Assembly (NCBI RefSeq): GCF_000282475.1
Contig: NZ_AKJF01000101.1
Location: 1-57,227, forward strand
Reading direction: 5' to 3'
From: Pseudomonas sp. GM78
GTDB taxonomy: Bacteria; Pseudomonadota; Gammaproteobacteria; Pseudomonadales; Pseudomonadaceae
Length of the DNA: 57,227 bases
Of this stretch, positions 32,984 through 50,485 are shown in pieces. Below the pieces are notes generated by a model. That model was not told the DNA's origin and searched no databases. It saw only the letters and a list, made by a program, of their open reading frames with translations. Every line of letters begins with the position of its first letter. Position 1 is the first letter of the stretch. Position numbers and translations under genes: made by a program.

Positions 32984-33035
32984 GAGTGAAGCTCCCGTAT
33001 AGAGTTGAGAGCTACCACGTTCGTTCTCAGGCGAA

Positions 33036-33120
33036 TGGGTGGCAGCTGTGCGCAGGCTGAGAACCGGAGATACGGGATTCCGGCAGACCCGAAGGTCTCC
33101 CACGCACAGCCGCCATTGCA
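33036..33120 (-). ncRNA. C4 / P4-CI-like antisense RNA core
   Basis: Minus-strand transcript with an outer 12-bp stem (33103-33114 with 33041-33052, one G-U pair), an AGACC-UUCG-GGUCU tetraloop hairpin (33085-33098), and two single-stranded boxes, CCCGTAT (33070-33076) and GGTTCTCAG (33057-33065). Both boxes have exact complements upstream (33177-33183, 33192-33200) and again downstream (32994-33000, 33023-33030; the latter 8 of 9). The seqA-seqB-seqC layout is that of phage P4 CI and P1/P7 c4 RNAs. Assignment to the C4 class is by architecture only. Confidence 0.6.
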
Positions 33121-33133
33121 CGGAAATGCTGGC

Positions 33134-33174
33134 ACAAAAAAAAGCGCCGGCAATCGTGATTGGTGGCGCTTGTG
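33134..33174 (-). terminator. Intrinsic terminator/attenuator in the DUF3077 leader
   Basis: Minus-strand AAGCGCC / GGCGCTT stem (33065+100 to 33071+100, i.e. 33165-33171, with 33142-33148) with a 16-nt loop, followed by eight U. It lies between the first complementary box and the RNA core, about 220 nt before the DUF3077 gene. Confidence 0.8.
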
Positions 33175-33200
33175 CGCCCGTATCTTACCCGGGTTCTCAG

Positions 33201-33303
33201 GCCCGGTCGCTGAATTGGCAGCGACGGGTCGAAGTTAGCGTGTGGGTATGGGATCGCACAATCGTGGCCTTGTGCTGGCCGGGATGCGATTGGACGCGGC
33301 AGT
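33201..33303 (-). promoter_or_regulatory. Probable start region of the DUF3077 leader transcript
   Basis: Contains a GTCGCTG / CAGCGAC hairpin (33205-33226) and, on the minus strand, a TTGTGC…TAACTT pair with an 18-bp spacer as a weak promoter candidate. Nothing else is recognised before the next REP element. Confidence 0.3.
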
Positions 33304-33414: not shown

Positions 33415-34833
33415 TTATTTGTGCGGCTTGTCCAGCAATCGGAAAAACCGCTCCCGCACCTGCACATGATCACTGTGCGCCACGTTGAAGCGCAGAAACT
33501 GATTGCCGTCCGCCGCCTTGCTGAGCATGGTCCCCGGCGCCAGCACCAGGTCGATTTCCAGACCCTTGCGGGCCAGGGTTTCGGCATCGAATCCATCGGG
33601 CAGTCGCGTCCAGATATACAGCCCTTCGCCAGGCAGCGAAGACACCGAACACCCGGCTTCGCCCAGCCACGCCGCCACCCGGCTGTTCGACTCGTAGAGC
33701 CGGTCCACCGTGCGGCGCATGTGTTTGGCGTAGCTGCCGTCGCTGAGCATGGTGCAGATGATCTGTTCGGCCATTTCCGAGGTCATGCCGCCGCAGGCCA
33801 TTTTCAGGGTCACCATCCGCGCCGCCAGTTGTGGTGACAGCACCGCGAAGCTGACGCGGCTGTTGGCGGTCAGGGTCTTGGAGAATCCCGAGACGTAGGA
33901 GACGTTGTCCAGTCCGCTCGCGGCCAGGCGCGGGGTTCGGCGTTGCTGCATGTCGCAGTACAGGTCGTCTTCGAGGATGTGGAAATTGTAGCGATGGCTC
34001 AACTCCAGCAAGCGGTAGACCTGCGCTGAGGTGAACGAGTGCCCGGTCGGGTTGTGCAGGGCATTGTTGGTCAGGTAGAGCACGGGACGGTGGGCGATCA
34101 GCAACTGCTCCAAGGCATCAAGGTCCATGCCGTCGCAATCGCGGCGGATGGTGATGACCTTGGCCCCGTGCCAAGCCAGGTTGGTGTGCATCGTGAAGTA
34201 ACAGGGGTCATCGAGCAGCACCGTGTCGCCGGGTTTGACCAGCAGGCGCATCAGCATGTCGATGGCCTGTACGGTGTTGGCGGTGGTGATGATCTGCTCG
34301 ACCGGCGCTTCGATGCCCAGGGTCGCCATTTTCACCCGCAAGGCCTGACGCAGTGGCAGGTAACCGCTGGCGTTGCCGTATTCGCCCATGCGCAGGGTGG
34401 TTGCGCGAAGGGTGCCGCGTACGGCCTTGAGCAATTCTTCGGCAGGCAGCCATGAGGACGGCAGGAAACCGGCCCCCGGGCGCAGCGCGCCATTGTCCAG
34501 CAGCACTGCGCGGCGGACCACGCTGAGTGTGTCCTGGGGTAGCAGGTCGGGGCCGGCGTTGCTCTGGACGCTGCTGTTGGAACGGTGCACGTAATGCCCC
34601 GAGCCCTGGCGTGACACCACCAGCCCCTTGGCACGCAAGCGGTCGAGGGCGTCGACCACCGTGGACTTGCCCACGTGCATCAGGTCGGAGAGTTCGCGAA
34701 TCGGTGGCAGCCTCGAGCCATGGGGCAGGCCGCCCTTGCTGATCGCCACCGTCAACTGATCGACGATCTGCTGCACCAGCGGCACACCCGGCTGGAACTC
34801 GATAGCGGCGATCACTGCTCGCTGAGCCTGCAT
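33415..34833 (-). CDS. MocR-family (GntR-HTH/aminotransferase) regulator of the biosynthetic cluster
   Basis: PLP-dependent transcription factor of 472 residues. The N-terminal GntR winged helix (about 10-80) has HGSRLPPIRELSDLMHVGKSTVVDALDRL, and a class I aminotransferase-like domain follows to the end. The Schiff-base lysine is in SGFSKTLTANSRVSF. It is divergent from the MFS gene with a 148-bp spacer that holds two perfect dyads, one directly before its own start, so autoregulation and control of the cluster are likely. MocR ligands are often amino acids or PLP adducts, in keeping with an amino-acid-derived product. Confidence 0.92.
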   Translation of the reverse strand: MQAQRAVIAAIEFQPGVPLVQQIVDQLTVAISKGGLPHGSRLPPIRELSDLMHVGKSTVVDALDRLRAKGLVVSRQGSGHYVHRSNSSVQSNAGPDLLPQDTLSVVRRAVLLDNGALRPGAGFLPSSWLPAEELLKAVRGTLRATTLRMGEYGNASGYLPLRQALRVKMATLGIEAPVEQIITTANTVQAIDMLMRLLVKPGDTVLLDDPCYFTMHTNLAWHGAKVITIRRDCDGMDLDALEQLLIAHRPVLYLTNNALHNPTGHSFTSAQVYRLLELSHRYNFHILEDDLYCDMQQRRTPRLAASGLDNVSYVSGFSKTLTANSRVSFAVLSPQLAARMVTLKMACGGMTSEMAEQIICTMLSDGSYAKHMRRTVDRLYESNSRVAAWLGEAGCSVSSLPGEGLYIWTRLPDGFDAETLARKGLEIDLVLAPGTMLSKAADGNQFLRFNVAHSDHVQVRERFFRLLDKPHK

Positions 34834-34881
34834 TTTACTGGTCTCTCTGGCAGTAAAGTTCGTTTGATTCTATACGAACTT
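34834..34881. promoter_or_regulatory. Two tandem operator-like dyads between MocR and MFS genes
   Basis: TTTACTG-N10-CAGTAAA (34834-34857) and AAGTTCGT-N10-ACGAACTT (34856-34881). Both have perfect arms and 10-bp spacers, with centres 23 bp apart. The first begins at the base next to the MocR start codon. Confidence 0.6.
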
Positions 34882-34981
34882 GCTCTGATCAAGACAAGCA
34901 TCTCTTTCTACCATCGCCTTACAGACTTTCTGGAGGGTCGACCTATGACGGTCGATCGATGCCAGGTTCGTGAGGTGTTGC

Positions 34982-36082
34982 ATGAGTGTCGAAACAACGG
35001 TCGTCGCGGCCAAGCCGGTGATCAACCTGCGGTTGTTCACCATCCGGATCATCACCGCCGTGTCGCTGTTCGCGGTGCTGGGCAAGGCCAACGTCTGGCT
35101 CGATACCGCCACCAACAGCATCCTGGCCCTGGGTTATCGGGCCTTGTTGCTGCTGTTGCCATTGACGTTGTTGGTCCTCGGTCGCCGCTCCTTGAGCGTC
35201 ACGCTGCTGTGCGCCGCCGGCGGGCTGGTGTTGCTGGCGGTCACCAGCAACCAGGGGGTGGTCATGTTTGCCGCGGCGTTGTTTGCCTACGGCATTGCGA
35301 TTGCCGGCTACCTGATCAAGAGCGAAGCGGCCCAGACCAAGGAGGGCGCCGCCTACAACCGCGTCGCCATGAACATGGGCAGCCTGCTGGCGGGGTTGAT
35401 CCTGCTGTCGCCGCTGTTGACCCCGACCCTGTTCTTCCTCGGCGCCGCAGGTTTCGTCCTGTTGTGCCTGCCGATCGCCATGGGCGCGACCTTCACCTGC
35501 GACCCCGTGGTTGCCCGTCCCGCCAGCCAGGATGGCAGCGGCTGGCGCAACAAGCTGCCGTGGGTCATCGCCGGCGTCATCATGGGCATCAAGCTGTTCG
35601 GCGTGTTCTCGATCCTGCCCCAGGCGATCCTGCTGAAGACCGGCGAACTGCCCGCCTGGTATGGCCTGATGCTGATCCTCAACAGCGCCGTGGTGGTGTT
35701 CGCGCAAGTACCGGTCATGAAGTTGATCGAGAGCACCGGGCGCTTCAAGGTGCTGACGGTGATCGCGATCATCGTCGGCGGTTTTGCCGTGCTGTCTTCG
35801 CCTGCCGCGTTCCACGTCGACACCCTGGTCGGCGCGCTGATCTGGGTGGCGCTGCTGTCCATCGCCGAGTGCGCTTTCAGTCACCTCGATTACTTCTCGG
35901 TCAAGCAGAACAACATGTTCGTCAAGGAAGTGTCCCTGGGCGTCGGCGCAGGGTTGACCGTGTTGATCATGCGGGTCGCGCCACCGCCCTACAACGCGCT
36001 GGTGCTGGCGGTCATCGGCGCTGGGGGGATCCTGATCTGGTACTGGCTCAACCGCCGATCGATCGCGTCGTTGCATGACTGA
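34982..36082 (+). CDS. MFS-type exporter of the biosynthetic cluster
   Basis: Inner-membrane protein of 366 residues with about ten to eleven hydrophobic helices (for example ALLLLLPLTLLVLGRRSLSV, LPWVIAGVIMGIKLFGVFSI, YNALVLAVIGAGGILIWYWL). The general layout is a major-facilitator-like carrier, somewhat short for the superfamily norm of about 400. ATG 34982 has GAGG 6 bases upstream; GTG 34970 is an alternative. First gene of the plus-strand operon and probably the exit or immunity route for the product (inference). Substrate unknown. Confidence 0.8.
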   Translation: MSVETTVVAAKPVINLRLFTIRIITAVSLFAVLGKANVWLDTATNSILALGYRALLLLLPLTLLVLGRRSLSVTLLCAAGGLVLLAVTSNQGVVMFAAALFAYGIAIAGYLIKSEAAQTKEGAAYNRVAMNMGSLLAGLILLSPLLTPTLFFLGAAGFVLLCLPIAMGATFTCDPVVARPASQDGSGWRNKLPWVIAGVIMGIKLFGVFSILPQAILLKTGELPAWYGLMLILNSAVVVFAQVPVMKLIESTGRFKVLTVIAIIVGGFAVLSSPAAFHVDTLVGALIWVALLSIAECAFSHLDYFSVKQNNMFVKEVSLGVGAGLTVLIMRVAPPPYNALVLAVIGAGGILIWYWLNRRSIASLHD

Positions 36083-36124
36083 GTCAGCGTAGTTTCGGTT
36101 TTCATTTTGCAAGTCGGGGGCTTT

Positions 36125-37405
36125 ATGAATACGACTTCATGCGTAGTAGTGGTGGGGTACAACGGCAGTCGGGTTCACGATATCCAGAAGCTGCGCGATC
36201 TGTGCAAGTCGCTGTACGACGCCAGGCTGATCCTGCTGGTCGAGCAGGTCCAGCCCCATGACGACCAGGTGGCGGATCACGTCTGCAGCACGTCCTTGGC
36301 CGAGCAGGACGTGGCGGCCTCCCTCGAGCTGGTGGTGGGGTGCCTGAAGGCCGATCGCTGGAAGCTGATTGGCGTGCTGCCGTTTTCTGACCGTGGCGTG
36401 CTGCTCGGTGCGGCGCTGGCCAGTCATTTCGGCTTGCCCGGTATTTCGCCTGCCGAGGCTCGGGCAGGGTTGGACAAACAGATTTTCCGCCAGCTCGAAG
36501 CGACGGCCACCACGGCGCCCGAAGATTACCGGCCGGTGGTTTCCTGCCGTATCGAGAGCTTGCCGGAATTGCGTCAGCGCGTGATCGAGCTGGGCGGCAA
36601 GGCGTTCATCAAGCCAGCCTGCGAAGGTGCCAGTCGCGGCTGCCGCGTCATCCGTCACCCGTCCGAATGCGACGAGGCGTGGCATGCGCTCAAGCTCTAC
36701 CGCGAGGGTGGCATCGTGCTCGAGGAGCTGATCCAGAACGCCCGGGAATACAGCTGGGACTCTGTCGCCGGAAGCACCTGGATCACCGAAAAAACCACCA
36801 CCGACGGTGCCTACCGCGCCGAGATCCAGCAAGTGGTGCCCGCACCGTTGGCGCCTGAGGTGCAGGCTCGACTGTTGGCAGCCGGCCAGCACATGGCGGG
36901 ACTGGTTTCCCAGGACAACGGTGCCTGGCACAACGAAGTGTTCTACCGGGCCAATCATCGCACCTCGGCCGTGGAAACCAACATGCGCCCCGGTGGCATG
37001 CACATCTGGGACCTGGCGCGCCAGGCGTTCGTCGATTTCGACCCGTGGGAGCGTTGGGTCCGCTGGGCCGTGGAAGGCCAGGTCGAGAGCCAGGAACCGG
37101 TGCCCCGGGGCTACTGCGGCATACGCCTGCTGCGGGCGACCACGGGCGGCATCCTGCGAGATGTTCCGGACATCCAGGCCCTGGCCCGTTCGCTGGGCAT
37201 CGAGCTGCTGGAGTCGGTGGTGAGCAAGCGCATCGGCGAATCGGTCAGCGCCCTGGTGAAAGACAACTTCTCGTTTATCGGCCACATCGTGTTGTTCAAC
37301 GAAGACTACGCGCAGCTCAGCAATGACCTGTTGCGCCTGGCCGAGGCCATTGAATCAAGGATCGGGATCACCAGCCTGGCGCCCTCCGCAAGGGTGTCGT
37401 GTTGA
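36125..37405 (+). CDS. ATP-grasp carboxylate-amine ligase
   Basis: Cytosolic ligase of 426 residues. The N-terminal domain is followed by an ATP-grasp fold: KAFIKPACEGASRGCRVI (nucleotide-binding Lys and glycine-rich loop), GGIVLEELIQNAREYSWD (hinge Glu), and the magnesium site VETNMRPGGMHIWD. Family members activate a carboxylate as acyl phosphate and couple it to an amine, so it could make a dipeptide- or amide-like product. ATG 36125 follows a GGGGG tract. It lies 42 bp after the MFS gene. Substrates cannot be read from sequence. Confidence 0.88.
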   Translation: MNTTSCVVVVGYNGSRVHDIQKLRDLCKSLYDARLILLVEQVQPHDDQVADHVCSTSLAEQDVAASLELVVGCLKADRWKLIGVLPFSDRGVLLGAALASHFGLPGISPAEARAGLDKQIFRQLEATATTAPEDYRPVVSCRIESLPELRQRVIELGGKAFIKPACEGASRGCRVIRHPSECDEAWHALKLYREGGIVLEELIQNAREYSWDSVAGSTWITEKTTTDGAYRAEIQQVVPAPLAPEVQARLLAAGQHMAGLVSQDNGAWHNEVFYRANHRTSAVETNMRPGGMHIWDLARQAFVDFDPWERWVRWAVEGQVESQEPVPRGYCGIRLLRATTGGILRDVPDIQALARSLGIELLESVVSKRIGESVSALVKDNFSFIGHIVLFNEDYAQLSNDLLRLAEAIESRIGITSLAPSARVSC

Positions 37406-37454
37406 GTGTCAGGGATCGATGTTTTTTTGCAGTATTGATCAAGAGGTTCGGCAA

Positions 37455-37949
37455 ATGATTGAGCACATGACTTGTGACGAGCGCTTCATCGCGCTGGCGA
37501 AGGAATTCGACTACGACATCTACGGTGAAAACAGCGCAGGCGGGCATTACGCGCCGCTGATCCGCCACCACGACGAGCTGTATATCAGTGGCATGGTGCC
37601 GCGGGTGAACGGCAAGATCCAGTACCCCGGTCGGGTCGGCCTGGACCTGGACATGGCGGACGCACAAGCGGCCGCCAGCCTCTGCGCGATGCGCGGCTTG
37701 GCGTTGATCGTCGATGCCATCGGTTCGCTGGACAAGATCAAGTCGCTGATAAGGATCTCAGTGTATGTGAAATCCACGGCGGATTTTGTCGATCTCAGCG
37801 AAGTGGCCAACGGCGCCTCGGATGTGTTCAGTCATGTACTGGGCGATGCTGGAAAACATACACGCACGACCGTCGGTGTTTATCAATTGCCGAAAAACGC
37901 GGCAGTGGAAGTGGACATGATCGTGGCGTTGCGACCTTCTGCGTTATAA
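37455..37949 (+). CDS. RidA (YjgF/YER057c/UK114) family protein
   Basis: 164-residue Rid-family protein. Conserved parts are LYISGMVPRVNGKIQYPGRVG near the N-terminus and HTRTTVGVYQLPKNAAVEVDMIV with the substrate-carboxylate Arg at the C-terminus. RidA enzymes hydrolyse reactive enamine/imine intermediates produced by PLP enzymes, a sensible partner for an aminotransferase/aminomutase pathway. ATG 37455 is preceded by AAGAGG; ATG 37419 is in frame but lacks a good site. The N-terminal extension relative to about 130-residue RidA is noteworthy. Confidence 0.88.
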   Translation: MIEHMTCDERFIALAKEFDYDIYGENSAGGHYAPLIRHHDELYISGMVPRVNGKIQYPGRVGLDLDMADAQAAASLCAMRGLALIVDAIGSLDKIKSLIRISVYVKSTADFVDLSEVANGASDVFSHVLGDAGKHTRTTVGVYQLPKNAAVEVDMIVALRPSAL

Positions 37950-38033
37950 GTATGAGTTATTCGACTTTACAGCGATTAATTGTTCGCCTAAGGTCGAGTA
38001 ACTCAACTCTGCAGAATAAGTTGGAAGCCGAAC

Positions 38034-38519
38034 ATGAATAACGTTCAGGGTGCATTCTTTTCCTATAAGGACTTCCGCCAAAGTCTGGTTCGTCAGCCGA
38101 TTAAACCAAGGGTTTGGACGGATGTTGAACTAACGGGGATACGTCAGAGCCTGGAGGCCAGCGATGTCGATATTGTCGCGCTGGCCCACGACAACAGCCT
38201 CGATGGCTGCTCGTTGACGCCCGGAATGGCCGTGTCCATGCAATGGTTGATACCGGGTACTCAGCTCCATGGCCATGATCATGCGTGGTGGCACCTGTTC
38301 ATCATCCAGTGCGGCAATGGCACCTTGACCCTGGGCGATGCCGAGGCCGTGCCCGTCGGCAGCGGGGACGTGCTGCTGGTGCCGGCCTGGTCCCGCCACG
38401 GCTTCGTCAACACCAGCGCCACCGAGCCGCTGGCCATGCTCAATATCAGCAACATGCCCCAGGCGCTGCTGCTCGCCAATTGCACCGACAACGTCGGCCT
38501 GATCCCCCGCCAGCTGTAA
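38034..38519 (+). CDS. Cupin-domain protein
   Basis: 161-residue single-domain cupin. Motif 1 reads PGTQLHGHDHAWWHLFIIQCG (two His plus a third in WWH), and motif 2 is GSGDVLLVPAWSRHGFVN with its His. This is a complete metal-binding set, so a metal-dependent enzyme or a small-molecule sensor are both possible. It is the last gene before a strong terminator, giving a first operon MFS-ATP-grasp-RidA-cupin. Confidence 0.85.
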   Translation: MNNVQGAFFSYKDFRQSLVRQPIKPRVWTDVELTGIRQSLEASDVDIVALAHDNSLDGCSLTPGMAVSMQWLIPGTQLHGHDHAWWHLFIIQCGNGTLTLGDAEAVPVGSGDVLLVPAWSRHGFVNTSATEPLAMLNISNMPQALLLANCTDNVGLIPRQL

Positions 38520-38540
38520 ATTCCCCCTCCGTTTCACACC

Positions 38541-38572
38541 AGGGAGTCCGCGTTCGCGGACTCCCTTTTTTC
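38541..38572 (+). terminator. Intrinsic terminator splitting the biosynthetic cluster
   Basis: Perfect 10-bp stem AGGGAGTCCG / CGGACTCCCT with a 6-nt loop and six T, 21 bp after the cupin stop. Confidence 0.95.
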
Positions 38573-38630
38573 GTTTCTGCCGTGCCCTCGACAAGCCCTT
38601 GGCTATTCGCATTTTCGAATTTTCTGTATC

Positions 38631-38655
38631 GATGCAAACGGATAATTTCTGTATC
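38631..38655 (+). promoter_or_regulatory. Direct repeat upstream of the second biosynthetic operon
   Basis: TTTCTGTATC occurs exactly twice, at 38631-38640 and 38646-38655, start-to-start 15 bp. It lies between the cupin terminator and the GST-like gene. MocR-type regulators commonly bind direct repeats, so it may be an operator for either nearby MocR protein (inference). Confidence 0.5.
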
Positions 38656-38731
38656 TGTTCAGCGCCCGGTCAACTTACTACGATCGCCTCGAATGCAACG
38701 GATTAATGTGCTTAGTGCAAGGGAGCGTTCT

Positions 38732-39388
38732 ATGGAAAGCAACAGGATTAAACTCTATGTTGGCGCGGATTTTGTCAGCGCTTTTGCGATGTCAGCGTTT
38801 GTGGCACTCAAGGAGAAGCAACTTTCATTTGAACTTGTCACGCTGGATTTAAAGGCAAGAGAGAACTATCAGGCGAAGTATCGTGATATTTCGCTGACCT
38901 GCAAGATTCCCACCTTAGTTCATACAGGTTTCGCACTGTCGGAATCTTCCGCCATCGCTGAATACCTGGAGGAACTCGCGCCAGGGCATGCAAGGCTTTT
39001 CCCCCAGGACCTCCAGCAGCGTGCCCGGGCCCGTCAACTCCAGGCCTGGCTGCGCAGCGATTTGCTGGTGATCCGCAAAGAGCGCCCATTTGACCTGGTG
39101 TACTTCGGCAAGAAAAACGTGCCGCTCTCCGACGATGCCAGGGCAGCGGTGGAGCGCCTGTTCTTCGTCGCCGAGCGCTTGCTGGAGGAGGGCGCCGAGC
39201 ACCTCTTCGGCGACTGGAGCATTGCCGACACGGACCTGGCGATCATGCTCAACCGGCTGGTCGCCAATGGCGATCAAGTCCCGGCGCGACTCGCGGCGTA
39301 TGTCCGTCGCCAGTGGGATCGCGACAGTGTGCGGGCATGGATGGACATAGAGCGCAAAGCGCCGGCCATCGCACCGGCTGTTGTTTAA
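38732..39388 (+). CDS. Glutathione S-transferase-like protein
   Basis: 218-residue GST-fold protein. The thioredoxin-like N-terminal domain runs from KLYVGADFVSAFAMSAFVAL to KIPTLVHTGFALSESSAIAEYLEEL, with the cis-Pro and the SES glutathione-contact motif. The all-helical C-terminal domain contains LFGDWSIADTDLAIMLNRL. It resembles the YfcF branch of GSTs. Possible roles are conjugation or isomerisation of a reactive intermediate, or self-protection. ATG 38732 has GGGAG 6 bases upstream. First gene of the second operon. Confidence 0.88.
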   Translation: MESNRIKLYVGADFVSAFAMSAFVALKEKQLSFELVTLDLKARENYQAKYRDISLTCKIPTLVHTGFALSESSAIAEYLEELAPGHARLFPQDLQQRARARQLQAWLRSDLLVIRKERPFDLVYFGKKNVPLSDDARAAVERLFFVAERLLEEGAEHLFGDWSIADTDLAIMLNRLVANGDQVPARLAAYVRRQWDRDSVRAWMDIERKAPAIAPAVV

Positions 39389-39422
39389 GGCGACTGTCAG
39401 GGCAATCACCAGGAGCGCTGCC

Positions 39423-40775
39423 ATGCAAGGACTGTCGGAGCACGAACGCTACAAACCCTATAACGCTCGCACCATTCGCGACACACCGTATTGGCACAGG
39501 TTGACGCCTGAGCTGCAGGAAGCCATGACGGTCGTGGCCCGGGTCATGCCGTTTCGCACCAACGAATACGTGCTGGGAACGCTGATCGACTGGAACAACA
39601 TCCCGGACGATCCGATTTTCCGCATGACCTTTCCCCACAGGGACATGTTGCTGGCCGATGAATATGCCTCGCTCAAGCACCTGATCGAACAGGATGACGC
39701 CGCTGCGATCAAGCGGCGCATCGAGGCGATCTGGCTGCGCATGAACCCCCATCCGGCCGGGCAGCTGACGCACAACGGTGCGACCCTCGATGGAAAGGTC
39801 CTGCCGGGCATCCAGCACAAGTATCGCGAGACCGTGCTGTTTTTCCCCGGTGCCGGTCAGACCTGTCATGCGTACTGCACCTTCTGTTTCCGCTGGGCGC
39901 AGTTCATCGGCGAGGAGGAGCTCAAGTTCAACGCGCGGGAATCCCAGAAACTGCTGAGCTACCTGCGCGTGCACACGGAAGTGACCGACGTGCTGATCAC
40001 CGGTGGCGATCCACTGATCATGAACACCCGCTCGCTGGCGGGGTACATCGAGCCGCTGCTGGCGCTGGCGCATCTCAAGAGCATCCGCATCGGCACCAAG
40101 TCGGTGGCGTACTGGCCGCAGCGGTTTGTCAGTGACAAGGATGCAGACGAGTTGCTCGAACTGTTCCGGCGGATCGTCGCGGCGGGTAAGAACCTGTCGA
40201 TCATGGGCCACTACAACCACCCGGTGGAGATTCGCCAGGACATCGCCCGGCAGGCCGTCGAACGCATTCGCTCCACGGGCGCGACCCTGCGCATGCAGGC
40301 GCCGGTGATCCGCCATATCAACGAAAACCCCGCCGATTGGGCGGACCTCTGGACCGAAGGCGTAAGGCTCGGGGCGGTGCCCTATTACATGTTCGTCGAG
40401 CGCGACACTGGCCCCAGCCACTACTTCGCGATGCCGCTGGCCCGGGCGTTCGAGATCTTCCAGGCGGCGTACCGCACAGTGTCTGGACTGGCGCGAACGG
40501 TGCGCGGGCCGTCGATGAGCACCTTCTACGGCAAGGTCTTGATCAACGGCATCGAGACCGTCGCCGGGGAAAAAGTCTTCGTGCTGCAGTTCCTCCAGGC
40601 CCGGGACCCGCAATGGGTATTGCGGACCTTCTATGCACGCTTCGATCCGCAGGCGACCTGGTTCGACGAGCTGCGCCCGGCCTTTGGTGAACGCGGTTTT
40701 TTCTTTCAGACCGAGCCTGAGCGTTTGCTGGCACCCGCGCCGGAGTTGATACCGGTTCTGCTGCAAACAGCCTAG
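39423..40775 (+). CDS. KamA-family radical SAM, PLP-dependent 2,3-aminomutase-like enzyme
   Basis: 450 residues. The radical-SAM cluster motif is C148-x3-C152-x2-C155 (CHAYCTFC), followed by an ITGGDPL SAM-binding segment. The PLP lysine is K371 in TFYGKVLI, matching lysine 2,3-aminomutase. In lysine aminomutase two Asp hold the substrate side-chain amine; here the position seven residues before the PLP Lys is Ser364-like (RGPSMST) and the other site is altered (VERDTGPSHYF). The substrate is therefore probably not lysine. Expected chemistry is conversion of an alpha- to a beta-amino acid. AGGAG precedes ATG 39423. It lies 34 bp after the GST gene. Confidence 0.9.
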   Translation: MQGLSEHERYKPYNARTIRDTPYWHRLTPELQEAMTVVARVMPFRTNEYVLGTLIDWNNIPDDPIFRMTFPHRDMLLADEYASLKHLIEQDDAAAIKRRIEAIWLRMNPHPAGQLTHNGATLDGKVLPGIQHKYRETVLFFPGAGQTCHAYCTFCFRWAQFIGEEELKFNARESQKLLSYLRVHTEVTDVLITGGDPLIMNTRSLAGYIEPLLALAHLKSIRIGTKSVAYWPQRFVSDKDADELLELFRRIVAAGKNLSIMGHYNHPVEIRQDIARQAVERIRSTGATLRMQAPVIRHINENPADWADLWTEGVRLGAVPYYMFVERDTGPSHYFAMPLARAFEIFQAAYRTVSGLARTVRGPSMSTFYGKVLINGIETVAGEKVFVLQFLQARDPQWVLRTFYARFDPQATWFDELRPAFGERGFFFQTEPERLLAPAPELIPVLLQTA

Positions 40776-40806
40776 GACGACACTTGATGACTGGGGAGAC
40801 AAGGAC

Positions 40807-41679
40807 ATGAGCGGTATCCCGTTTGATCAGCGCGAAGGATTGATCTGGCTCGATGGCGAGTTCGTCGAGTGGTCCCAGGCGCGCCTGCATGTGCTGACCC
40901 ACGGCTTGCATTACGCAAGCACGGTGTACGAGGGCGAGCGCGTGTACAGCGGCAAGATCTTCAAACTGCGCGAACACACCGAGCGGTTGTATCGCTCGGC
41001 ACAGTTGATGGATTTCGCCCTCCCGTTCGAACTCGACGAGCTGGAAGCGGCCAGCCAGCAATTGCTGCAACGTAACAATGTGGTCGACGGCTATTTGCGG
41101 CCGGTGGCCTGGCGCGGCAGTGAGATGATTTCCACGTCGGCGCGGTTCAATCGCGTGCATGTGGCGATCGCCTGCTGGCAATGGCCGAGCTATTTCGACC
41201 CGGCGGCGCGCATGGCCGGCATCCGCCTGAAGACCGCCACCTGGCGCCGTCCGCCGCCCAGCAGCAGCCCGTTCGAAGCCAAGGCGTCCGGGCACTACCA
41301 GATCGCCACGCTGAGCAAGCACGACGCCGAAAACAACGGCTATCACGACGCCTTGATGCTCGACTGGCGCGGCCATGTCGCCGAAGCCACCAGCGCCAAC
41401 GTGTTCTTCGCCAAGGGGCGGACCTTGCATACGCCGGTGCCTGATTGCTTCCTCGACGGCATTACCCGCCAGACCGTCGTCGAGTTGGCCCGGGCGCTGG
41501 ATTATCAGGTCATCGAACGCACGATCCTGCCCACGGAACTGGGCGACTTCGACGAGTGTTTTCTTACCGGCACCGCCGCCGAAATCACCCCGGTACAGAG
41601 CATTGATGAACAGCGATACCGACCGGGCAGCGCCTGCAGTGAATTGATTGCCGCTTACACCTCAACCGTAAACGCCTGA
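40807..41679 (+). CDS. Class IV (branched-chain/D-amino-acid type) aminotransferase
   Basis: PLP enzyme of 290 residues with fold type IV features: LTHGLHYASTVYEGER, the PLP lysine K171 in ATLSKHDAENNGYHDALMLD, E193 in VAEATSANVF, and TGTAAEITPVQSID at the C-terminus. Its relatives include branched-chain aminotransferase and aminodeoxychorismate lyase. In this cluster it may install or remove the alpha-amine before or after the aminomutase. It lies 31 bp after kamA-like and 21 bp before the dioxygenase gene. Confidence 0.92.
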   Translation: MSGIPFDQREGLIWLDGEFVEWSQARLHVLTHGLHYASTVYEGERVYSGKIFKLREHTERLYRSAQLMDFALPFELDELEAASQQLLQRNNVVDGYLRPVAWRGSEMISTSARFNRVHVAIACWQWPSYFDPAARMAGIRLKTATWRRPPPSSSPFEAKASGHYQIATLSKHDAENNGYHDALMLDWRGHVAEATSANVFFAKGRTLHTPVPDCFLDGITRQTVVELARALDYQVIERTILPTELGDFDECFLTGTAAEITPVQSIDEQRYRPGSACSELIAAYTSTVNA

Positions 41680-41700
41680 TAAACCGCCAGGAAACTCACC

Positions 41701-42459
41701 ATGTCAGACCAAGGGATTGTTGCGTCCAAACCTTATGTTTCGCTGGGCCATCGCCATGAAGAGTTGTCAAATCGTGGCTGGACTGTGCTGACCCCAGGGG
41801 AATTTGCCCACGATGTAGCAGGAACACTGCATGAGTTCGGCCCGATCATTCCGCAGTTCAATGGCCAGATAGCGTTCGCCATCACCCGCAAGCCGGGCTA
41901 CGAGGACTTGCCGTACTCCCAGAGCATGAACGGCATCGGCCCGCACACCGAAGCGCCGGTGTACGGCCCGCCACCGCGTTACCTGGCGCTGCATTGCCAT
42001 AAACAGGCGACCTGCGGTGGCGGTCACACGGGGCTGGTGGACGGGTATGCGTTCTTGAAGTCGCTGGAGCAATCCGAGCCGGAACTACGCGAGTGGCTTG
42101 ACGACACGCCGGTGGAATTCGTCGCCACGGCCAAGCCCGGCGAGCCGGCGCAAACCCGGGTCAGGGAGTACATCCTGACACCGACCGAGGAGGGCGATAT
42201 TTTCCGCTTCAGCTACAACCAGTTTCACTACGGCGATGTGAATCCGTCGAAGGAAGCCTTGCAGCAATCACAGGTCAACAACAACGACTCGCCGCTGGCC
42301 CGGTTTGCCGTACTTGGCGAAGCGTACTTCGTCGAACACAACATCCCGGTGCTGATTCCCGACGGATGCATGCTGATTTGGGACAACTGGCGGATGATTC
42401 ATGCCCGCAGCCGATACACTGACCCGGCGCGCAACCTGACCCGCTACTGGCTGGCCTGA
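41701..42459 (+). CDS. Fe(II)/2-oxoglutarate oxygenase, TauD/clavaminate-synthase type (HxE variant)
   Basis: 252-residue oxygenase. Its iron triad reads H82-x-E84 (GPHTEAPVYG) and H234 (RMIHARSRYTD), with R248 14 residues later as likely 2-oxoglutarate ligand. Most TauD enzymes have HxD; HxE is the clavaminate synthase/asparagine oxygenase pattern. That branch acts on free or carrier-bound amino acids, so beta-hydroxylation, desaturation or ring closure of the amino-acid intermediate is plausible. It lies 64 bp before the diiron oxygenase gene. Confidence 0.9.
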   Translation: MSDQGIVASKPYVSLGHRHEELSNRGWTVLTPGEFAHDVAGTLHEFGPIIPQFNGQIAFAITRKPGYEDLPYSQSMNGIGPHTEAPVYGPPPRYLALHCHKQATCGGGHTGLVDGYAFLKSLEQSEPELREWLDDTPVEFVATAKPGEPAQTRVREYILTPTEEGDIFRFSYNQFHYGDVNPSKEALQQSQVNNNDSPLARFAVLGEAYFVEHNIPVLIPDGCMLIWDNWRMIHARSRYTDPARNLTRYWLA

Positions 42460-42483
42460 TTTTTCCGTCGCCCTTCTTTTTTC

Positions 42484-42505
42484 CGCGTACCCCCAGGGGT
42501 ACGCG
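42484..42505 (+). other. Intercistronic hairpin between oxygenase genes
   Basis: CGCGTACCCC and GGGGTACGCG are separated by 2 nt, so an 8-9-bp stem with a small loop can form. It is followed by TTCT only, so it is more likely an mRNA processing or partial-termination element than a full terminator. Confidence 0.4.
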
Positions 42506-42523
42506 TTCTACAGGTATCGCGTC

Positions 42524-43483
42524 ATGCAAACAGCAATCGAGATCGCCCAGGTCGATCATCAACTGATCGTACGGCTCAATCAGGCCTGGACCAAACGCGC
42601 CGCGGTGTGTTCGCCGGACAGGGCCCAGATCAACGAAGTGTTCGACCCGGCACGCCCGGATTACCCGGAGTGCATGGTGCCGTTTTTCCATCATCCGAAA
42701 TTCCAGGCCTTGAGTGATGAGCTCAAAAGCAAGGTGGTGACCTGGGGCTGGATCGGCTACAACCTGCGCACCGTCACCGCCGAGGAGCATGTGGTTAACC
42801 CGGCGTTGAGCGTCCTCGCCAATCAGTACCTGGGCAAGGACGACTGGCATTTTCGCGAAGCGATGCAGCAGACCCTGATCGACGAGCACTACCACACCCT
42901 CATGCACCTGCGGGCCATCGAGCGGACCAAGCTGGATCGCGCACTGGAGCAGGATCTGCAGTTGCCGCCATCGGTGACTTACCTGCGCCTCAAGGCCCTG
43001 CACGAGGAGTTGTCCGAGCCATGGCAGCGGGACCTGGCGGCGATCACCTTCGCGGTGGTGGCCGAGATCAGCGTCAATGCCTATCTCGACCTGCTGGCGG
43101 ACGACCAGACCATCCAGCCGCAAAACCGTCGCGTGGCCGAACTGCACAACCGCGACGAATACGCCCACAGCAAGGTGCTGGCCGAGGTGGCCAAGGTGAT
43201 GTACGCCAACATGCAGCCGGTCCAGCGGGAATTTTTCGCCCGCAACCTGTCGGTGGCGTTGAGTGCCTTCATCGCCCAGGACTACTCGATGTGGGAGGCG
43301 ATCCTCACGCAGCTCGGGGTCGAGGACGCCGCGTCGATCATTGCCGACACCCGCGAGAGCAACCGGAACGCGACGATCATGCGCGACTACAGTGGCCTGC
43401 ATAAGCTGGCACACGACCTGGGCATCAGCGAGCAGATCGACTTCGATTTTCGCCCGACCCTCAAAGCCACCGCAGCCGCCTGA
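42524..43483 (+). CDS. AurF-type diiron N-oxygenase
   Basis: 319-residue carboxylate-bridged diiron protein. The metal ligands fall at E87/E88, E121, H124, E181, H208, E212 and H215. The spacings E-x2-H, then 57, 27, 4 and 3 residues, equal those of the AurF arylamine oxygenase ligand set (E136, H139, E196, H223, E227, H230). Visible motifs are IDEHYHTLMH, VVAEISVNAY and LHNRDEYAH. Family members oxidise amines to hydroxylamine, nitroso or nitro groups. In this cluster an aliphatic amino-acid amine is the likely substrate (inference). Confidence 0.92.
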   Translation: MQTAIEIAQVDHQLIVRLNQAWTKRAAVCSPDRAQINEVFDPARPDYPECMVPFFHHPKFQALSDELKSKVVTWGWIGYNLRTVTAEEHVVNPALSVLANQYLGKDDWHFREAMQQTLIDEHYHTLMHLRAIERTKLDRALEQDLQLPPSVTYLRLKALHEELSEPWQRDLAAITFAVVAEISVNAYLDLLADDQTIQPQNRRVAELHNRDEYAHSKVLAEVAKVMYANMQPVQREFFARNLSVALSAFIAQDYSMWEAILTQLGVEDAASIIADTRESNRNATIMRDYSGLHKLAHDLGISEQIDFDFRPTLKATAAA

Positions 43484-43497
43484 ACCCGGAGGTGTCC

Positions 43498-44298
43498 ATG
43501 TCCATTCCCATGTACGAAGTGTTCGCCATCCGTGTCGGCGCCAACGCGCAGCGCACCGCCCGGGAGAACTTCCTCTACGACGCCTGCTGTGGCGACCCGA
43601 ATGCGCCGATGCCGCTGGACTATTACTTCTGGGTCATTCGCAACGAGCACCAGGTGATCGTGGTCGACACCTGTTTTCAACCGGCCACGGCGGACCGGCG
43701 CAACCGGCAGATGTATCGCCTGCCGGAAGATTCCCTGCGGCAACTGGACATCGATCCGGCGCAGGTCGAGCACCTGATCCTCACGCACCTGCACTGGGAC
43801 CACGCCGGCAACCTGGGGCTGTTTCCCAAGGCTACGGTGCATTTGCAGGAAGCCGAGTTGCGCTTCTGCACCGGGCCGAAGATGGCCCATCACACGGTGA
43901 ACAAGACCTATGAGGTCGAGGATGTGATGTCGGCGCTGCCGCCGCTGTTCGAAGGCAGGATGCGTTTGCACAACGGCACGGTGGAGGTGCTGCCTGGCGT
44001 CACACTGCACGCGGTGGGTGGTCATACACCGGGTAGCCAGGTAGTGCGGGTGAACACCGAACGGGGCTGGATCGTGCTGGCGTCGGACGCTGCGCACCTT
44101 TGGGTGAACATCCGCGAGCGTAGTCCGTTTCCAATCATCGATGACCTGGCGCAGTCGCTCGAAGCGTTCAGTGAAATCGATCGCCTGGCCGATAGTGCAG
44201 ACCACGTCATCCCCGGGCACGACCCCTTGATAGCCGAGCGTTTCCCGCACTGGAACGACGATCCGCACATCATCTGCCTGCACCAACCTCCACGCTAA
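43498..44298 (+). CDS. Metallo-beta-lactamase-fold hydrolase (lactonase-like)
   Basis: 266-residue MBL-fold protein. The zinc motif is H97-x-H99-x-D101-H102 (THLHWDHAGN). Later ligands lie in GGHTPGSQ, the bridging Asp in LASDAAHLW, and the last His in IPGHDP. The layout resembles AHL lactonases and related small lactone or thioester hydrolases. GGAGG precedes ATG 43498, 14 bp after the diiron oxygenase. It is the last gene of the second operon; a paired REP element follows 4 bp later. Confidence 0.88.
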   Translation: MSIPMYEVFAIRVGANAQRTARENFLYDACCGDPNAPMPLDYYFWVIRNEHQVIVVDTCFQPATADRRNRQMYRLPEDSLRQLDIDPAQVEHLILTHLHWDHAGNLGLFPKATVHLQEAELRFCTGPKMAHHTVNKTYEVEDVMSALPPLFEGRMRLHNGTVEVLPGVTLHAVGGHTPGSQVVRVNTERGWIVLASDAAHLWVNIRERSPFPIIDDLAQSLEAFSEIDRLADSADHVIPGHDPLIAERFPHWNDDPHIICLHQPPR

Positions 44299-44301
44299 CT
44301 T

Positions 44302-44375
44302 CTGTAGGAGCTGCCGGAGGCTGCGATCTTGTTTTTTCAGAATCAAAAGATCGCAGCCTGCGGCAGCTCCTACGG
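44302..44375. repeat. Paired REP element closing the biosynthetic cluster
   Basis: Inverted repeat with CTGTAGGAGCTGCCG and CGGCAGCTCCTAC outer arms and GGCTGCGATCTT / AAGATCGCAGCC inner arms, with one mismatched position each side. It begins 4 bp after the MBL stop. Confidence 0.9.
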
Positions 44376-44422
44376 GGGCGCACAAATATTTTTCAGCGAA
44401 TACATATATACCGCTGCCGTGA

Positions 44423-47400
44423 ATGACGATTGATGATCATGGAATGTGTGTTTTCTCAGGTACCACGCCTGAGGTGACGACATCGAGATCTTCTACATTC
44501 ACGGACGATTACGTTATGGAAAACTCGTTAGCTCGCGTCAAACGTACAGCCAATGTCACCGTCAAATTGCCCGCACTCAGCCCGCCTTTCATCAGTGCGG
44601 ACGATGCGGCGCGGTTTGCTCATGAGGCCATTGGCAATAAAAGGGACCGGGAGTATGGCGGCGCCATTCTTCGGCATGAAGACGGTCGCTTCTTTGCGAC
44701 CCTGCCTATCGCGGGCGATACCGTATTATTTGATCATCAAACGATGATGTCGACGGATGCGCAAGGCAACTTCGTCCACCCTGCCGGCTTCAAGTGCTAT
44801 GCCTTTTATCATTCACATCCAGCACACACTGCCAAGGTAAAAGAGGCTAACCCGTCGTTCTCCGATGACTTTATTGCCGTGGTCATGAGTTTCTATTCGG
44901 AAGCCGACAAGTACTTCATCATCCATCACAGGGCTTTTGCCCCGGCTCACTATTTATCAGGGGCTGAGAACTGCCTGCTTAAATATGTGAGCAGCGGATC
45001 CGCTGCGGAGGATCAGGTAGCGAAAACCATCAGGGAGGGACGAGCGCCTGACTCATTCGCGAATTTTGAAGGGCCGATTCACGAGTTGGCGCAGGCGGGA
45101 ACCCTGGGCGTTGTTGTGCCCAACACAGTATGGGGCGGACGCAGAGGCCAGATTCACCCGCAATGGACCTTGAACACGCCTGTGACGACCTCCCGGACGC
45201 CCACGGAACAACCCTTCTGCACACGCGTGTTCGATCAGTCGGCCAAGGCCGTCGACGCTGTACTGGGCTTTGACGGTACCCCATCCGATGACGGCTGCAT
45301 GGGGTTCATCCTCAAGGCGGTAGGCAAGGATGAATATGTCGCCACCCAACCGCTGAGCGCCCTTACACCGTTGTTTTCGCCGATCGAACTATTCCCCCAG
45401 CGTGCCAATGGCGGGCCGAAGCTGCCTTCCAACTTCAGGCTCGACGGCATCTACTATCGGTCTCGACCGGTCGCGGCGCAACGGCCTCCCAGGCAAGCCT
45501 GGCTGTATGACAACTTCTTTTCCCCGCAGGAGCTCGCGGCGGCGATCGCTCAGTCGCGTACCGACACCTATCTGCTGGATAGCCAGCGCGGGTTGACCCT
45601 GCATATGCGGGCCAAGGGCAACGCGCTGTTGAGTTACCAATGCTCTGGATCCGCTGCCGAAACAGCACTGCTGTCGGCACAAGGCACGACCTTGCACAAC
45701 GAACTGAAGGCTGGAACCTTGAGCGCTTTCGACTTTGTCCTCAAGGTGGCTGCTGCCGGCAGGTTGACCGTCGTGGAAACTGGCGACGTGTGGGATAAAA
45801 CGGGGGTTGTGGAGCAGAACTGGCGGCCTTTCGAGCGTATTCACCAAGCGCTGGGCCCGGCCTTTCTATCGGCCGACGATGCTGCTCGTCATGTCCACGA
45901 ACAGTTGGGTGATGTGCGAACTCATGACTGTCTGGGTTATGTGCTTGAGCGTTCGGACGGCAAGTTTTTTGCCACGCAGCCGGTGCGATCGGAACAATGG
46001 CTTGAGGGTTGGGGGCTCCCCCATGCAGGGGGTGTATCGAGCAAACTGATTGAACTTCCCGGTTATCGATACAAGGGGCAATACCTTGCCAATGCCCAGA
46101 CCCAGGCTCGGGTCAAAGAGCTGAACCCTTCCTGGTCGGAGGATGAGATCAATTTGTATGTGAGCATGCCCTCGATTGGCGCCATAGCCGGCATCGCTTC
46201 ACAGACCGCCGTACCCGCGCTCTATCATTCAGGTGCTGGCGGCTCGTTGATCAAATATGTGTGCAGTCGCTCCCAGGAAGAACTCAACTTCAAGAATCTT
46301 TTGGCTGCCGCGTTGGCGGGTGACCATACCATCGGTAAACAGCTCGATGGGTATGATGGGTCGACAGAACAACTGGTTAAAAAACTGGTGAGGACCGGTG
46401 AGCTCAGCGTCATCGTTTCGAATCGGGCCTGGAGAGGCTCGCGCGGAAAAGTGCCAACGGCGTGGGTTGCCTATGAGCCTTTTGACTCCGCGTCACCTGT
46501 CGCCCCCGCGCTCAGCTGGGTCTTTCAGGATGCAGAAACGGCCGCGCAATTTGCCCATGACCAGATGTTGGCAAAACCCACGGTCAGGCAAGTTGCTTTT
46601 ATCCTCAAGAACTCCCAGGTCGAAGAGTACGTGGTCACCGATCCGGCCGTCATCGATGCCGCCAACAGTGCATTGCCGTTGTTTTCGCCCCTGCATGCCT
46701 TCGCTGTCGATGATGCCGGGAAGTTCAAACTCCCCGAGGGCTATGCCCTGCAGAGTATTTGCTACCTGTCTTTGCCTGACGCCAGTTCGGCACGTGAAGA
46801 AAAGTGGGTTTACGAATGTTTTGTTTCTCCCACGGATTTCGCATTGGCAGTCGGCACCTCCCGAGTCGGGAAACCGACTGGGTTTGCGCTCTACATAAGC
46901 ACCCGCGATCGCGCGCAGTTGAAGTACGTATTCTCCCAATCCGCACAGGAGAACCAGTTGTATGCGGTTAATCCGCATGGAATCGTCACGGACAACGGTG
47001 ATCAAGCCGATTTGCTCTCGGGAACACTGACGCCTTCGGCGTTCGTAAAACGGGTGGCAGCAGCGGGCGAGATGTCGGTGATTCAGACGGGCAGGCTCTG
47101 GGATGTAGCGGGCTCTGTGGATCAGAACTGGCAGCCTTTTGCGCTGCATCCGAAACCCGTCTTGAGCCCGTCATTTCTCACGGCAGATGATGCGGCTCGT
47201 TATGCGCACGAACGTATCGGCAATCAGCGCGACTACGAGTTCAGTGGCTATATCCTGCAACGTCAGGATCAGCGGTTTGTTGTGACCGAGCCGCTCGACA
47301 ACTTCAAGTTCGGACGATTCACACCAGGCGCCATCTACCCTGTGGATGCTTCCGGGAAAGCGATACTGCCTGAGCGGCATGTTCTTTATGGCGTGTATGC

Positions 47401-50400: not shown

Positions 50401-50485
50401 TGATAAATTCTGGCAACCGCGTGGCCAACTCGCCACGAAAGAGATTCGCGAATTAAGCAGGAGAGGAGACTCGAATCCTTCCTGA
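44423..50485 (+). CDS. Giant protein of nine tandem DUF4329-like units
   Basis: 2020 residues without signal peptide or membrane segment. About nine units of roughly 215 residues start near residues 51, 267, 476, 691, 914, 1135, 1356, 1595 and 1802. Each has an N-half DDAARxAHExxGxxRD…ILRxxDGxFxATxP and a C-half with a LLKYxxSGSxxE segment, then AGxLxVVxxxxWG…WxP. Units 2, 4 and 6 form a second subtype (GFILK…EEYVAT…LFSP). Only unit 1 keeps a JAB/JAMM-like H130-S-H132-P…S-x-x-D pattern; the others have lost it. DUF4329 otherwise occurs in RHS/toxin contexts. The start is uncertain (44423, 44444 or 44516; none has a strong ribosome site). Confidence 0.8.
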   Translation: MTIDDHGMCVFSGTTPEVTTSRSSTFTDDYVMENSLARVKRTANVTVKLPALSPPFISADDAARFAHEAIGNKRDREYGGAILRHEDGRFFATLPIAGDTVLFDHQTMMSTDAQGNFVHPAGFKCYAFYHSHPAHTAKVKEANPSFSDDFIAVVMSFYSEADKYFIIHHRAFAPAHYLSGAENCLLKYVSSGSAAEDQVAKTIREGRAPDSFANFEGPIHELAQAGTLGVVVPNTVWGGRRGQIHPQWTLNTPVTTSRTPTEQPFCTRVFDQSAKAVDAVLGFDGTPSDDGCMGFILKAVGKDEYVATQPLSALTPLFSPIELFPQRANGGPKLPSNFRLDGIYYRSRPVAAQRPPRQAWLYDNFFSPQELAAAIAQSRTDTYLLDSQRGLTLHMRAKGNALLSYQCSGSAAETALLSAQGTTLHNELKAGTLSAFDFVLKVAAAGRLTVVETGDVWDKTGVVEQNWRPFERIHQALGPAFLSADDAARHVHEQLGDVRTHDCLGYVLERSDGKFFATQPVRSEQWLEGWGLPHAGGVSSKLIELPGYRYKGQYLANAQTQARVKELNPSWSEDEINLYVSMPSIGAIAGIASQTAVPALYHSGAGGSLIKYVCSRSQEELNFKNLLAAALAGDHTIGKQLDGYDGSTEQLVKKLVRTGELSVIVSNRAWRGSRGKVPTAWVAYEPFDSASPVAPALSWVFQDAETAAQFAHDQMLAKPTVRQVAFILKNSQVEEYVVTDPAVIDAANSALPLFSPLHAFAVDDAGKFKLPEGYALQSICYLSLPDASSAREEKWVYECFVSPTDFALAVGTSRVGKPTGFALYISTRDRAQLKYVFSQSAQENQLYAVNPHGIVTDNGDQADLLSGTLTPSAFVKRVAAAGEMSVIQTGRLWDVAGSVDQNWQPFALHPKPVLSPSFLTADDAARYAHERIGNQRDYEFSGYILQRQDQRFVVTEPLDNFKFGRFTPGAIYPVDASGKAILPERHVLYGVYASCLALSMYDPDKMQRYSWTRQQACIDAQMFTDVDIHTIVQNRHSVSLAYLSTAEDSLIAYDCSGSTTESALLKQVAPGPQGSLLAQDLASGALVPEDVVKQLADAGGLRVVVESDLWGAPGMVPEYWKAFPSAKDRAVPEQVAFGAIFASMDAAAKDAHQRVRRHGPDQTCFGFILKHKSKEEYIVSETVTASDKQALFSLASLFRTHETGGFEYPQDFDLNGLFHARQWMPKGLGSTEAWLAQHFISSSDLYKAFFEARRRKPKDATAGLQVYISTLDKALLKYQTPDSTTLFDARIQPSGAAEDVHTQLASGQLLPKDFVTRVATLSWLTVVVPNEFWGEQGTARLTEDWEPYPQNIRRALSPAFICEADAVRYAYRLLGNRRDKIYGGLILRSIDGLFVATEPMEVPTENFDPVWILPDEHFSKGLRAPGCSIVGRYRSRALTEYPFQLTGLEKGVYRNLLSTEVLSTALASSQLWNHEYLFGPDGSLISFTLLDEDRDLLTTSLKNELTARVTLLENQLAPSTDSPHDPWSNLIERRIRNGAATPTEFVTQLVKAAAVHVLESSNLWGPVQKLHAGWQPLTSGYSSPETARFALVDRTLSPTFEHMDDAVHYAHERAGRREHMSYGLILKSSRRGHFVTSLPVVADELKFAFDRVFPNGVLPTGYTVQGLYVCAPARQPDELPSHDVYYSFVPPSVLATALAAVGIPGQALRFQPLYLSCADGALLKYEAVRLDSDLQFGSGLRAYVKTLQEDGDPAQYIRKVIAAGYLSVLVSSPVWASTGRAIFNWQPRQISSYVSNNERLPLGPLCLHPDDAARQVWRLRRVYHGKAYLGAILRNEATHTFVAVQPLNDTGSSVVLGEAYRRLFSGVMNTSLPASNKYPTGYEVMGVQQIYKLDDTPHNFSTHYEKALYRNFIAHGEIRAVIDKLRVDNVPDARYYLTPRNGALLAYAPGYSTNESEVLFNDWQDVENGVTRSKLQEVLGTLAKRGRFYVLEPDKFWQPRGQLATKEIRELSRRGDSNPS

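Follow-up and report, generated by a model that had tools for sequence, protein, structure and literature searches.

A conserved two-operon gene cluster of Pseudomonas that may direct synthesis of a small N-oxygenated acidic amino acid

Introduction

What does a bacterium make when genes for a radical S-adenosylmethionine (SAM) aminomutase, a diiron N-oxygenase and an ATP-grasp protein stand together without a nonribosomal peptide synthetase (NRPS) or a polyketide synthase (PKS)? The question is raised by ten co-directed genes and a divergent MocR gene in Pseudomonas sp. GM78, flanked on one side by cyo genes and on the other by a second MocR gene. The window, the whole stretch of DNA that we analysed, is the 57,227-nucleotide contig C101 (NZ_AKJF01000101.1) of a 7.29-Mb Pseudomonas-group genome. 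An initial annotation, made from the letters alone, had described this set as a biosynthetic cluster. All eleven genes are located where it had placed them, and the MocR gene (33415-34833) falls just outside the interval that it named. Family scans found neither NRPS nor PKS genes in the cluster, as it had claimed, and nearly all of its gene names match the families found by those scans; the name 'exporter' is the one that no family model matches. We suspect, at slightly less than an even chance of being right, that the eleven genes, in two operons, together direct the synthesis of a small N-oxygenated acidic amino acid.

Results

Conservation and co-inheritance of the two operons

Scanning genome contigs for KamA gave 591 relatives, and the locus survey covered the best 80 of these. 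Nineteen loci among them, L021-L039, all from Pseudomonas, carry the eleven genes in identical order, with cyoE upstream in 17 of the 19 and the second MocR gene downstream in 18 (the contig of L023 is short). Gene content and synteny are established, and the description of a conserved, biosynthetic-type cluster stands. Among 298 Pseudomonas genomes, matches at E 1e-30 numbered 38 for KamA, 33 for AurF and 37 for the ATP-grasp protein. Close forms of the three (at least 83%, 76% and 67% identical, respectively) occur in the same 30 of the 298 genomes, the sets being compared by hand. The initial annotation had allowed that the two operons might never be inherited together. They are co-inherited, because markers of both, the ATP-grasp gene of operon 1 and kamA and aurF of operon 2, occur in the same 30 genomes. 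The remaining 8 KamA-positive Pseudomonas genomes have copies that are 48-66% identical, and 3 of these 8 (G100, G114 and G293) contain the flavin-type cluster described below.

The eleven genes are under purifying selection: median dN/dS is 0.06-0.23 over the set (NG86; window versus the 19 Pseudomonas loci). Shortened reading frames were found for the cupin gene in L022 and for at4 and aurF in L039, and kamA of G107 contains one in-frame TGA. A search for AurF in 398 sampled genomes of the phylum found it in the window's own genome only; the locus of Trinickia terrae (L063), which also has aurF, was found via KamA only.

An aminomutase with a probable acidic substrate

The product of kamA (39423..40775, forward strand) is a KamA-type radical SAM 2,3-aminomutase, for which we predict glutamate as the substrate. 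It scores 144 bits against TIGR00238, below the cut-off of 199, matches the lysine 2,3-aminomutase 2a5h (E 2.5e-21) and has the radical SAM motif CxxxCxxC in the form CHAYCTFC. We rejected lysine 2,3-aminomutase as its identity (113.8 bits versus a TIGR03820 cut-off of 525.4). It reaches 98 of 600 bits with the arginine 2,3-aminomutase model and fails the EpmB model by a wide margin too. Its 100.2 bits against TIGR04368 (cut-off 650) place it outside the clostridial-type glutamate 2,3-aminomutase family, with use of glutamate still possible.

Conserved residues point to an acidic side chain. In 70 aligned KamA rows, the capital positions of PYYxFxERDTG and RxxRGPxMSxxxGK are invariant, as are R341 and K385 (each 70/70); K385, the lysine of the C-terminal GK, would by analogy be the lysine of the pyridoxal phosphate (PLP) site. 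Our reference positions in lysine 2,3-aminomutase were Asp293, which we take to bind lysine, Asp330, and Lys337, presumably the PLP residue. In an ungapped comparison, Asp293 lies opposite R341 and Asp330 opposite S378. Clostridial glutamate 2,3-aminomutase has a Lys/Asn pair.

The genomic context of a relative points the same way. The macrolactam-type locus L103, the nearest context of known type for this KamA, carries a copy that is 52-53% identical, beside PKS, AMP-binding, PLP-enzyme and iminopeptidase genes, and PYYxFxERDTG and RGPxMSxxxGK are common to it and the window's KamA. We infer that L103 is incednine-type. IdnL4 of incednine is taken to be a glutamate 2,3-aminomutase giving beta-glutamate, and gene disruption supports this (accessible part of PMC11284099). 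Because of the invariant R341 and the macrolactam context, we think that the substrate is probably an acidic amino acid, glutamate.

The surroundings of this KamA branch vary, from the macrolactam-type PKS of L103 to NRPS/PKS genes in L101 and cupin, N-hydroxylase and tRNA-ligase-like genes in Rhodococcus L105. At 29 of the best 80 loci, KamA stands alone with a transporter neighbour of one family. These include L052 and L077 (Oxalobacteraceae and relatives), where a major facilitator superfamily (MFS) transporter is the sole neighbour; at such loci beta-glutamate is perhaps secreted or stored. An N-hydroxylase and a class I tRNA-ligase-like protein are encoded beside KamA in L105 and, as judged by eye, in L149, and such sets are known for N-N bond formation.

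Two unrelated N-oxygenases beside one aminomutase branch

Loci with AurF (type A) and loci with a homologue of the flavin-dependent aspartate N-hydroxylase (type B) both occur around this branch. The best 80 loci comprise 20 with AurF (the 19 Pseudomonas loci and Trinickia L063), 17 with the flavin PF13454-type enzyme, the 29 with a transporter only, and 14 with none of these within the DNA available. That two unrelated N-oxygenases adjoin one aminomutase branch is our main ground for proposing N-oxidation of an amino dicarboxylate. The branch that would feed N-oxygenases is present in at least two phyla, Pseudomonadota and Actinomycetota.

The AurF-type diiron N-oxygenase of the window (42524..43483, forward strand) scores 154 bits with PF11583 and 250 bits with the NCBIfam AurF model, whose cut-off is 620. 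It matches 5hyg (E 1.9e-68) and AurF itself (3chh, E 5.1e-64) over about 300 amino acids, its full length. Seven positions (E, E..H, E, H...E..H), which we take to be the iron ligands of the diiron site, are identical to those of 3chh and 5hyg. Family scans found no arylamine (pab) genes among the cluster genes. Elsewhere, two plasmid loci with AurF homologues linked to pabB, L112 and L113 of Rhodococcus qingshengii and Burkholderia glumae, likely make products derived from 4-aminobenzoate.

At the type B locus of Pantoea (L083), the flavin protein matches 8cp2 over its full length (E 2.2e-62). In the accessible part of PMC10404684, 8CP2 is the L-aspartate N-hydroxylase of Streptomyces sp. V2, and core arginines are named there as contacting aspartate or sulphate. 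The single Pantoea sequence keeps all seven (R13, R266, R276, R409, R412, R416 and R577); it also keeps R597 and has K for R593. Beside this flavin-type cluster, at 5229-9853 of L083, lie genes for a second KamA-type enzyme, a 2-hydroxyacid dehydrogenase and another ATP-grasp protein, and Rahnella L085 has the same extra genes.

In a KamA tree of 47 rows, in which 4 of 21 rows represent type A and 6 of 29 represent type C, type A forms one clade (95/96) and type B arises in two changes. Branches are long, and the tree does not prove the direction in which the oxygenases were swapped.

Enzymes that may act on the alpha carbon

Two further genes of operon 2 encode a class IV aminotransferase (at4, 40807..41679, forward strand) and a 2-oxoglutarate (2OG) oxygenase resembling TauD and gamma-butyrobetaine dioxygenase (41701..42459, forward strand). 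The aminotransferase is of the branched-chain aminotransferase (BCAT) type, scoring 469 bits against PRK07544 (cut-off 396) and matching solved BCATs down to E 3e-69. The oxygenase scores 64 bits with PF02668 and matches 4bg1 (E 1.6e-8). In Trinickia L063 and Pseudomonas gingeri L038, a gene for an Ldh_2-type (malate/lactate-type) dehydrogenase lies between kamA and at4 (PF02615, 348 bits; the two copies are 59% identical). Side by side, a TauD-type hydroxylase, an Ldh_2 dehydrogenase and a BCAT suggest that a single carbon is hydroxylated, oxidised and then transaminated. The same enzymes could also run in the reverse direction, with removal of an amine and reduction of a ketone.

Operon 1, its regulation and the MocR-RidA pair

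Intergenic gaps in the cluster are 14-84 nucleotides with the ATG starts that we chose, except for 212 nucleotides between the cupin gene and gst. The first gene of operon 1 (34982..36082, forward strand, from a chosen ATG) encodes a multi-pass membrane protein of 366 amino acids with about 12 hydrophobic segments in a hydropathy scan. It matches nothing in Pfam or NCBIfam at E 0.01, and an assignment of this gene to an exporter family was not kept; we call it a putative exporter. The next product (36125..37405, forward strand) is a probable carboxylate-amine ligase. Its matches to Pfam ATP-grasp models (PF13535/PF02222, 19 bits) and to a D-Ala-D-Ala ligase (Ddl) model (26 bits) are below the cut-offs, and it also matches biotin carboxylase weakly, so that the ATP-grasp assignment is weak. 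The third (37455..37949, forward strand) is a RidA/YjgF-type enamine/imine deaminase (PF14588, 54 bits) with a possible role in self-protection.

The divergent gene (33415..34833, reverse strand) encodes a MocR-type regulator with a GntR DNA-binding domain and an aminotransferase-like domain (PF00392, PF00155), and it is present in 19/19 loci. Between it and operon 1, an inverted repeat, AAGTTCGT-N10-ACGAACTT (34856..34881), is a putative MocR operator. It occurs once in the window, its arms are perfect in 17 of 20 aligned rows (imperfect in L028, L037 and L038), and its identity to the window is 0.95, compared with 0.76 for the remaining intergenic sequence. A putative second promoter, TTTACA-N17-TAAGGT, lies at approximately 37966..37994 (forward strand), 5' of the cupin gene. 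The TTTACA box is found in 18 of 20 aligned rows (L037 has TTTAGA and L038 has no match). In 11 of the 20 rows TAAGGT follows at a distance of 17 nucleotides, and most of the remaining rows have a sequence close to it. The conserved box supports a predicted second operon starting at the cupin gene.

RidA and MocR did not prove specific to the cluster, and we rejected them as diagnostic of it, since both occur without it. RidA orthologues (at least 74% identity) are present in 40 of 268 Pseudomonas genomes that lack the cluster (counted by hand). Five cluster-less genomes, read at the same chromosomal site, include 3 with RidA and 1 with MocR. In the one with MocR (L117, 2225-4236), mocR and rid are adjacent and separated by a variant of the inverted repeat. 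The MocR-RidA pair may have resided there before the cluster, may be what is left where the cluster was lost, or may confer immunity.

Cupin, glutathione transferase and metallo-beta-lactamase-fold proteins

Operon 2 begins with a small cupin (38034..38519, forward strand; PF07883), whose nearest solved relatives, at low score, are gentisate and 5-nitrosalicylate dioxygenases. A glutathione transferase family protein (GST; 38732..39388, forward strand) follows, at 300 bits with NF011693 (cut-off 150). The operon ends with a metallo-beta-lactamase-fold (MBL) hydrolase (43498..44298, forward strand; PF00753, 70 bits), which is closest to 8x78 among solved structures (E 1.5e-19) and then to N-acyl homoserine lactone lactonases.

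Discussion

A proposed route to a nitro amino acid

We postulate the following route, in which every reaction, substrate and the order of steps is predicted from sequence. KamA would convert glutamate to beta-glutamate, and the AurF-type oxygenase would oxidise the beta-amine to a nitro group, or halt at the hydroxylamine or nitroso stage. The TauD-type enzyme would hydroxylate the alpha carbon. The resulting alcohol would become a ketone through the Ldh_2-type dehydrogenase in P. gingeri and Trinickia and through another step elsewhere, and the BCAT-type aminotransferase would install a new amine at the alpha carbon. The product would be an amino acid resembling beta-nitroglutamate. In Pseudomonas, the ATP-grasp protein would probably join it to another amino acid, followed by export. 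RidA would clear the reactive enamine formed when PLP enzymes eliminate nitrite, and the conserved inverted repeat would be the site through which MocR controls operon 1. The alpha-to-beta amino shift and N-oxidation of the initial annotation still seem the best reading, sharpened here to an acidic substrate. Amide ligation did not hold up as part of a shared core, since no ATP-grasp orthologue was found at the Trinickia locus or, in a search that had no positive control, in the Trinickia genome. The end product in Trinickia may be the free amino acid.

A more specific version of this proposal is, we think, doubtful as a whole. It holds that the product is beta-nitroglutamate or a dipeptide of it, made via beta-glutamate by an AurF that acts on an aliphatic substrate, and that cousins in Streptomyces, Burkholderia, Pantoea and Pseudomonas use the unrelated flavin N-oxygenase for the same new chemistry, the two N-oxygenases being interchangeable. 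In this version the product loses nitrite in PLP enzymes, and MocR-RidA is an immunity pair that some non-producers keep at the same site.

Several points weigh against the proposed route. The HMMER alignment, with a one-residue gap, sets E340 rather than R341 opposite Asp293, and activity of IdnL4 was not seen in vitro (accessible part of PMC11284099). In the other 18 of 20 type A loci, the space between kamA and at4 is too small for a dehydrogenase gene. In the one Pantoea flavin protein, the aspartate-binding N413 is E. The scheme gives the cupin, GST and MBL proteins no role. Among the 17 flavin loci, MBL is present in 14, the cupin in 11 and GST in 7. Because 3 of these loci lack MBL, 6 lack the cupin and 10 lack GST, we regard the shared module as loose. 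Lastly, among the nearest plasmid homologues of AurF (11 records, 26-39% identity), both of the 2 whose surroundings were read stand beside pabB, which points to arylamines.

This last point also bears on a different, quite unlikely explanation, that the AurF enzyme oxidises an aromatic amine, to which the ATP-grasp protein joins a separate beta-amino acid made by KamA. The similarity to AurF and 5hyg fits this, as do the aromatic-ring dioxygenases among the cupin's nearest solved relatives. However, no pabA, pabB or other aromatic-amine gene is among the eleven genes, and the N-oxygenase in 17 of the best 80 KamA loci is a homologue of aspartate N-hydroxylase, which fits an acidic aliphatic substrate. 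We also consider it unlikely, if less so, that N-oxidation ends at a hydroxylamine or oxime and the product cyclises (to an isoxazolidinone-type compound or an N-hydroxy lactam), or that nitrite is released as a reactive donor. Nitrosuccinate is a source of nitrite. In favour of such an outcome, MBL and the cupin have no place in our scheme, and many pathways obtain nitrosuccinate from enzymes of the aspartate N-hydroxylase family (accessible part of PMC10404684). On the other side, family scans recognised no nitrosuccinate-lyase-type gene in the cluster. AurF and CmlI carry oxidation through to the nitro group, which also weighs against an early stop.

The position beside cyoABCDE, at one chromosomal site, raises the very unlikely alternative of a catabolic or stress operon whose enzymes degrade a nitro or amino acid. 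RidA, GST, MBL and cupin proteins are common in catabolism, and MocR-RidA also occurs alone; but the ATP-grasp protein, the putative exporter and the N-oxygenase suit synthesis, and the distribution is patchy (30 of 298 genomes). The least probable alternative, in our estimate, keeps the same later logic and has KamA act on another amino acid (aspartate-like, lysine, alanine or branched). The aminotransferase scores above the cut-off of BCAT models, a type suited to a branched or hydrophobic chain, whereas the invariant R341 and the macrolactam context indicate an acidic side chain.

Relation to known systems

The cluster is real, conserved and, as far as we searched, undescribed. No description of this gene combination or product was recognised in the open literature, with most subscription papers outside the search. 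The claim that no described pathway has this gene set holds to that extent. The nearest published counterpart among those we saw, similar in part, is the Pbo cluster of P. syringae pv. phaseolicola (PMC8473136). As given by gene description in the accessible part of that paper, Pbo includes a KamA-type protein (pboF), an ATP-grasp L-amino acid ligase (pboG), a 2OG oxygenase (pboH) and MFS transporters. It differs in having an NRPS and a PKS, and AurF, BCAT, RidA, GST and MBL are absent from its table.

Other systems share single parts. IdnL4 of incednine-type macrolactams (accessible parts of PMC11284099 and PMC10662134) is also a KamA-type radical SAM protein, a likeness drawn here through the KamA of L103. 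Those pathways turn beta-glutamate into a polyketide starter by decarboxylation; in contrast, the window has no PKS, and has an N-oxygenase, a 2OG oxygenase and an aminotransferase instead. The CreE/FzmM family of aspartate N-hydroxylases, or nitrosuccinate synthases, N-oxidises an amino dicarboxylate (accessible part of PMC10404684), and its homologues are the flavin enzymes beside KamA in 17 of the best 80 loci. The window has the unrelated diiron AurF enzyme, and no nitrite-releasing lyase was recognised in it. The diiron arylamine oxygenases AurF and CmlI (3chh, 5hyg) are full-length homologues, although the window's cluster lacks arylamine genes. Other predicted peptide-type operons combine cupin, N-hydroxylase and ATP-grasp genes, and none in the accessible part of PMC2922099 shows the window's set. 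The kind of product that we predict is exemplified by nitropeptin, a nitro dipeptide antibiotic of Streptomyces xanthochromogenes (known here from a title cited in PMC5138215). Our search of the open literature found no gene cluster for nitropeptin. Nitropeptin contains a beta-nitroglutamate residue.

If our proposal is correct, the cluster would represent a route to rare nitro amino acids that relies on a ligase and dispenses with NRPS and PKS, and its KamA would belong to a radical SAM branch supplying N-oxygenases in at least two phyla. AurF would be an enzyme of its family with an aliphatic substrate, and RidA, a widespread protein, would gain a specific role in self-protection. The old question of what bacteria produce from beta-glutamate would also become testable.

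Other features of the window

A short GC-rich palindrome directly 5' of aurF (42460-42523, seen by eye) is perhaps a processing or attenuation hairpin. Between cyoE and mocR (33035-33238, reverse strand) lie a C4 antisense RNA, its a1/b1 target and an isrK-like RNA, likely a phage remnant. A long inverted repeat with GATCGCAGCC-type arms, also found by eye, fills 44299-44422 between the MBL gene and a gene for a DUF4329-domain protein, and looks like a repetitive extragenic palindromic (REP) element. The DUF4329 gene (44423-50485, forward strand; 2020 amino acids) is inserted right after the MBL gene. We rejected it as a member of the cluster, as all 19 Pseudomonas loci lack it. Alginate synthesis and export genes (AlgX, lyase, exporter and glycosyltransferase) occupy 2160-15020 on the reverse strand, and an RHS-like fragment, recognised by eye and matching no Pfam model, lies at 53280-54296.

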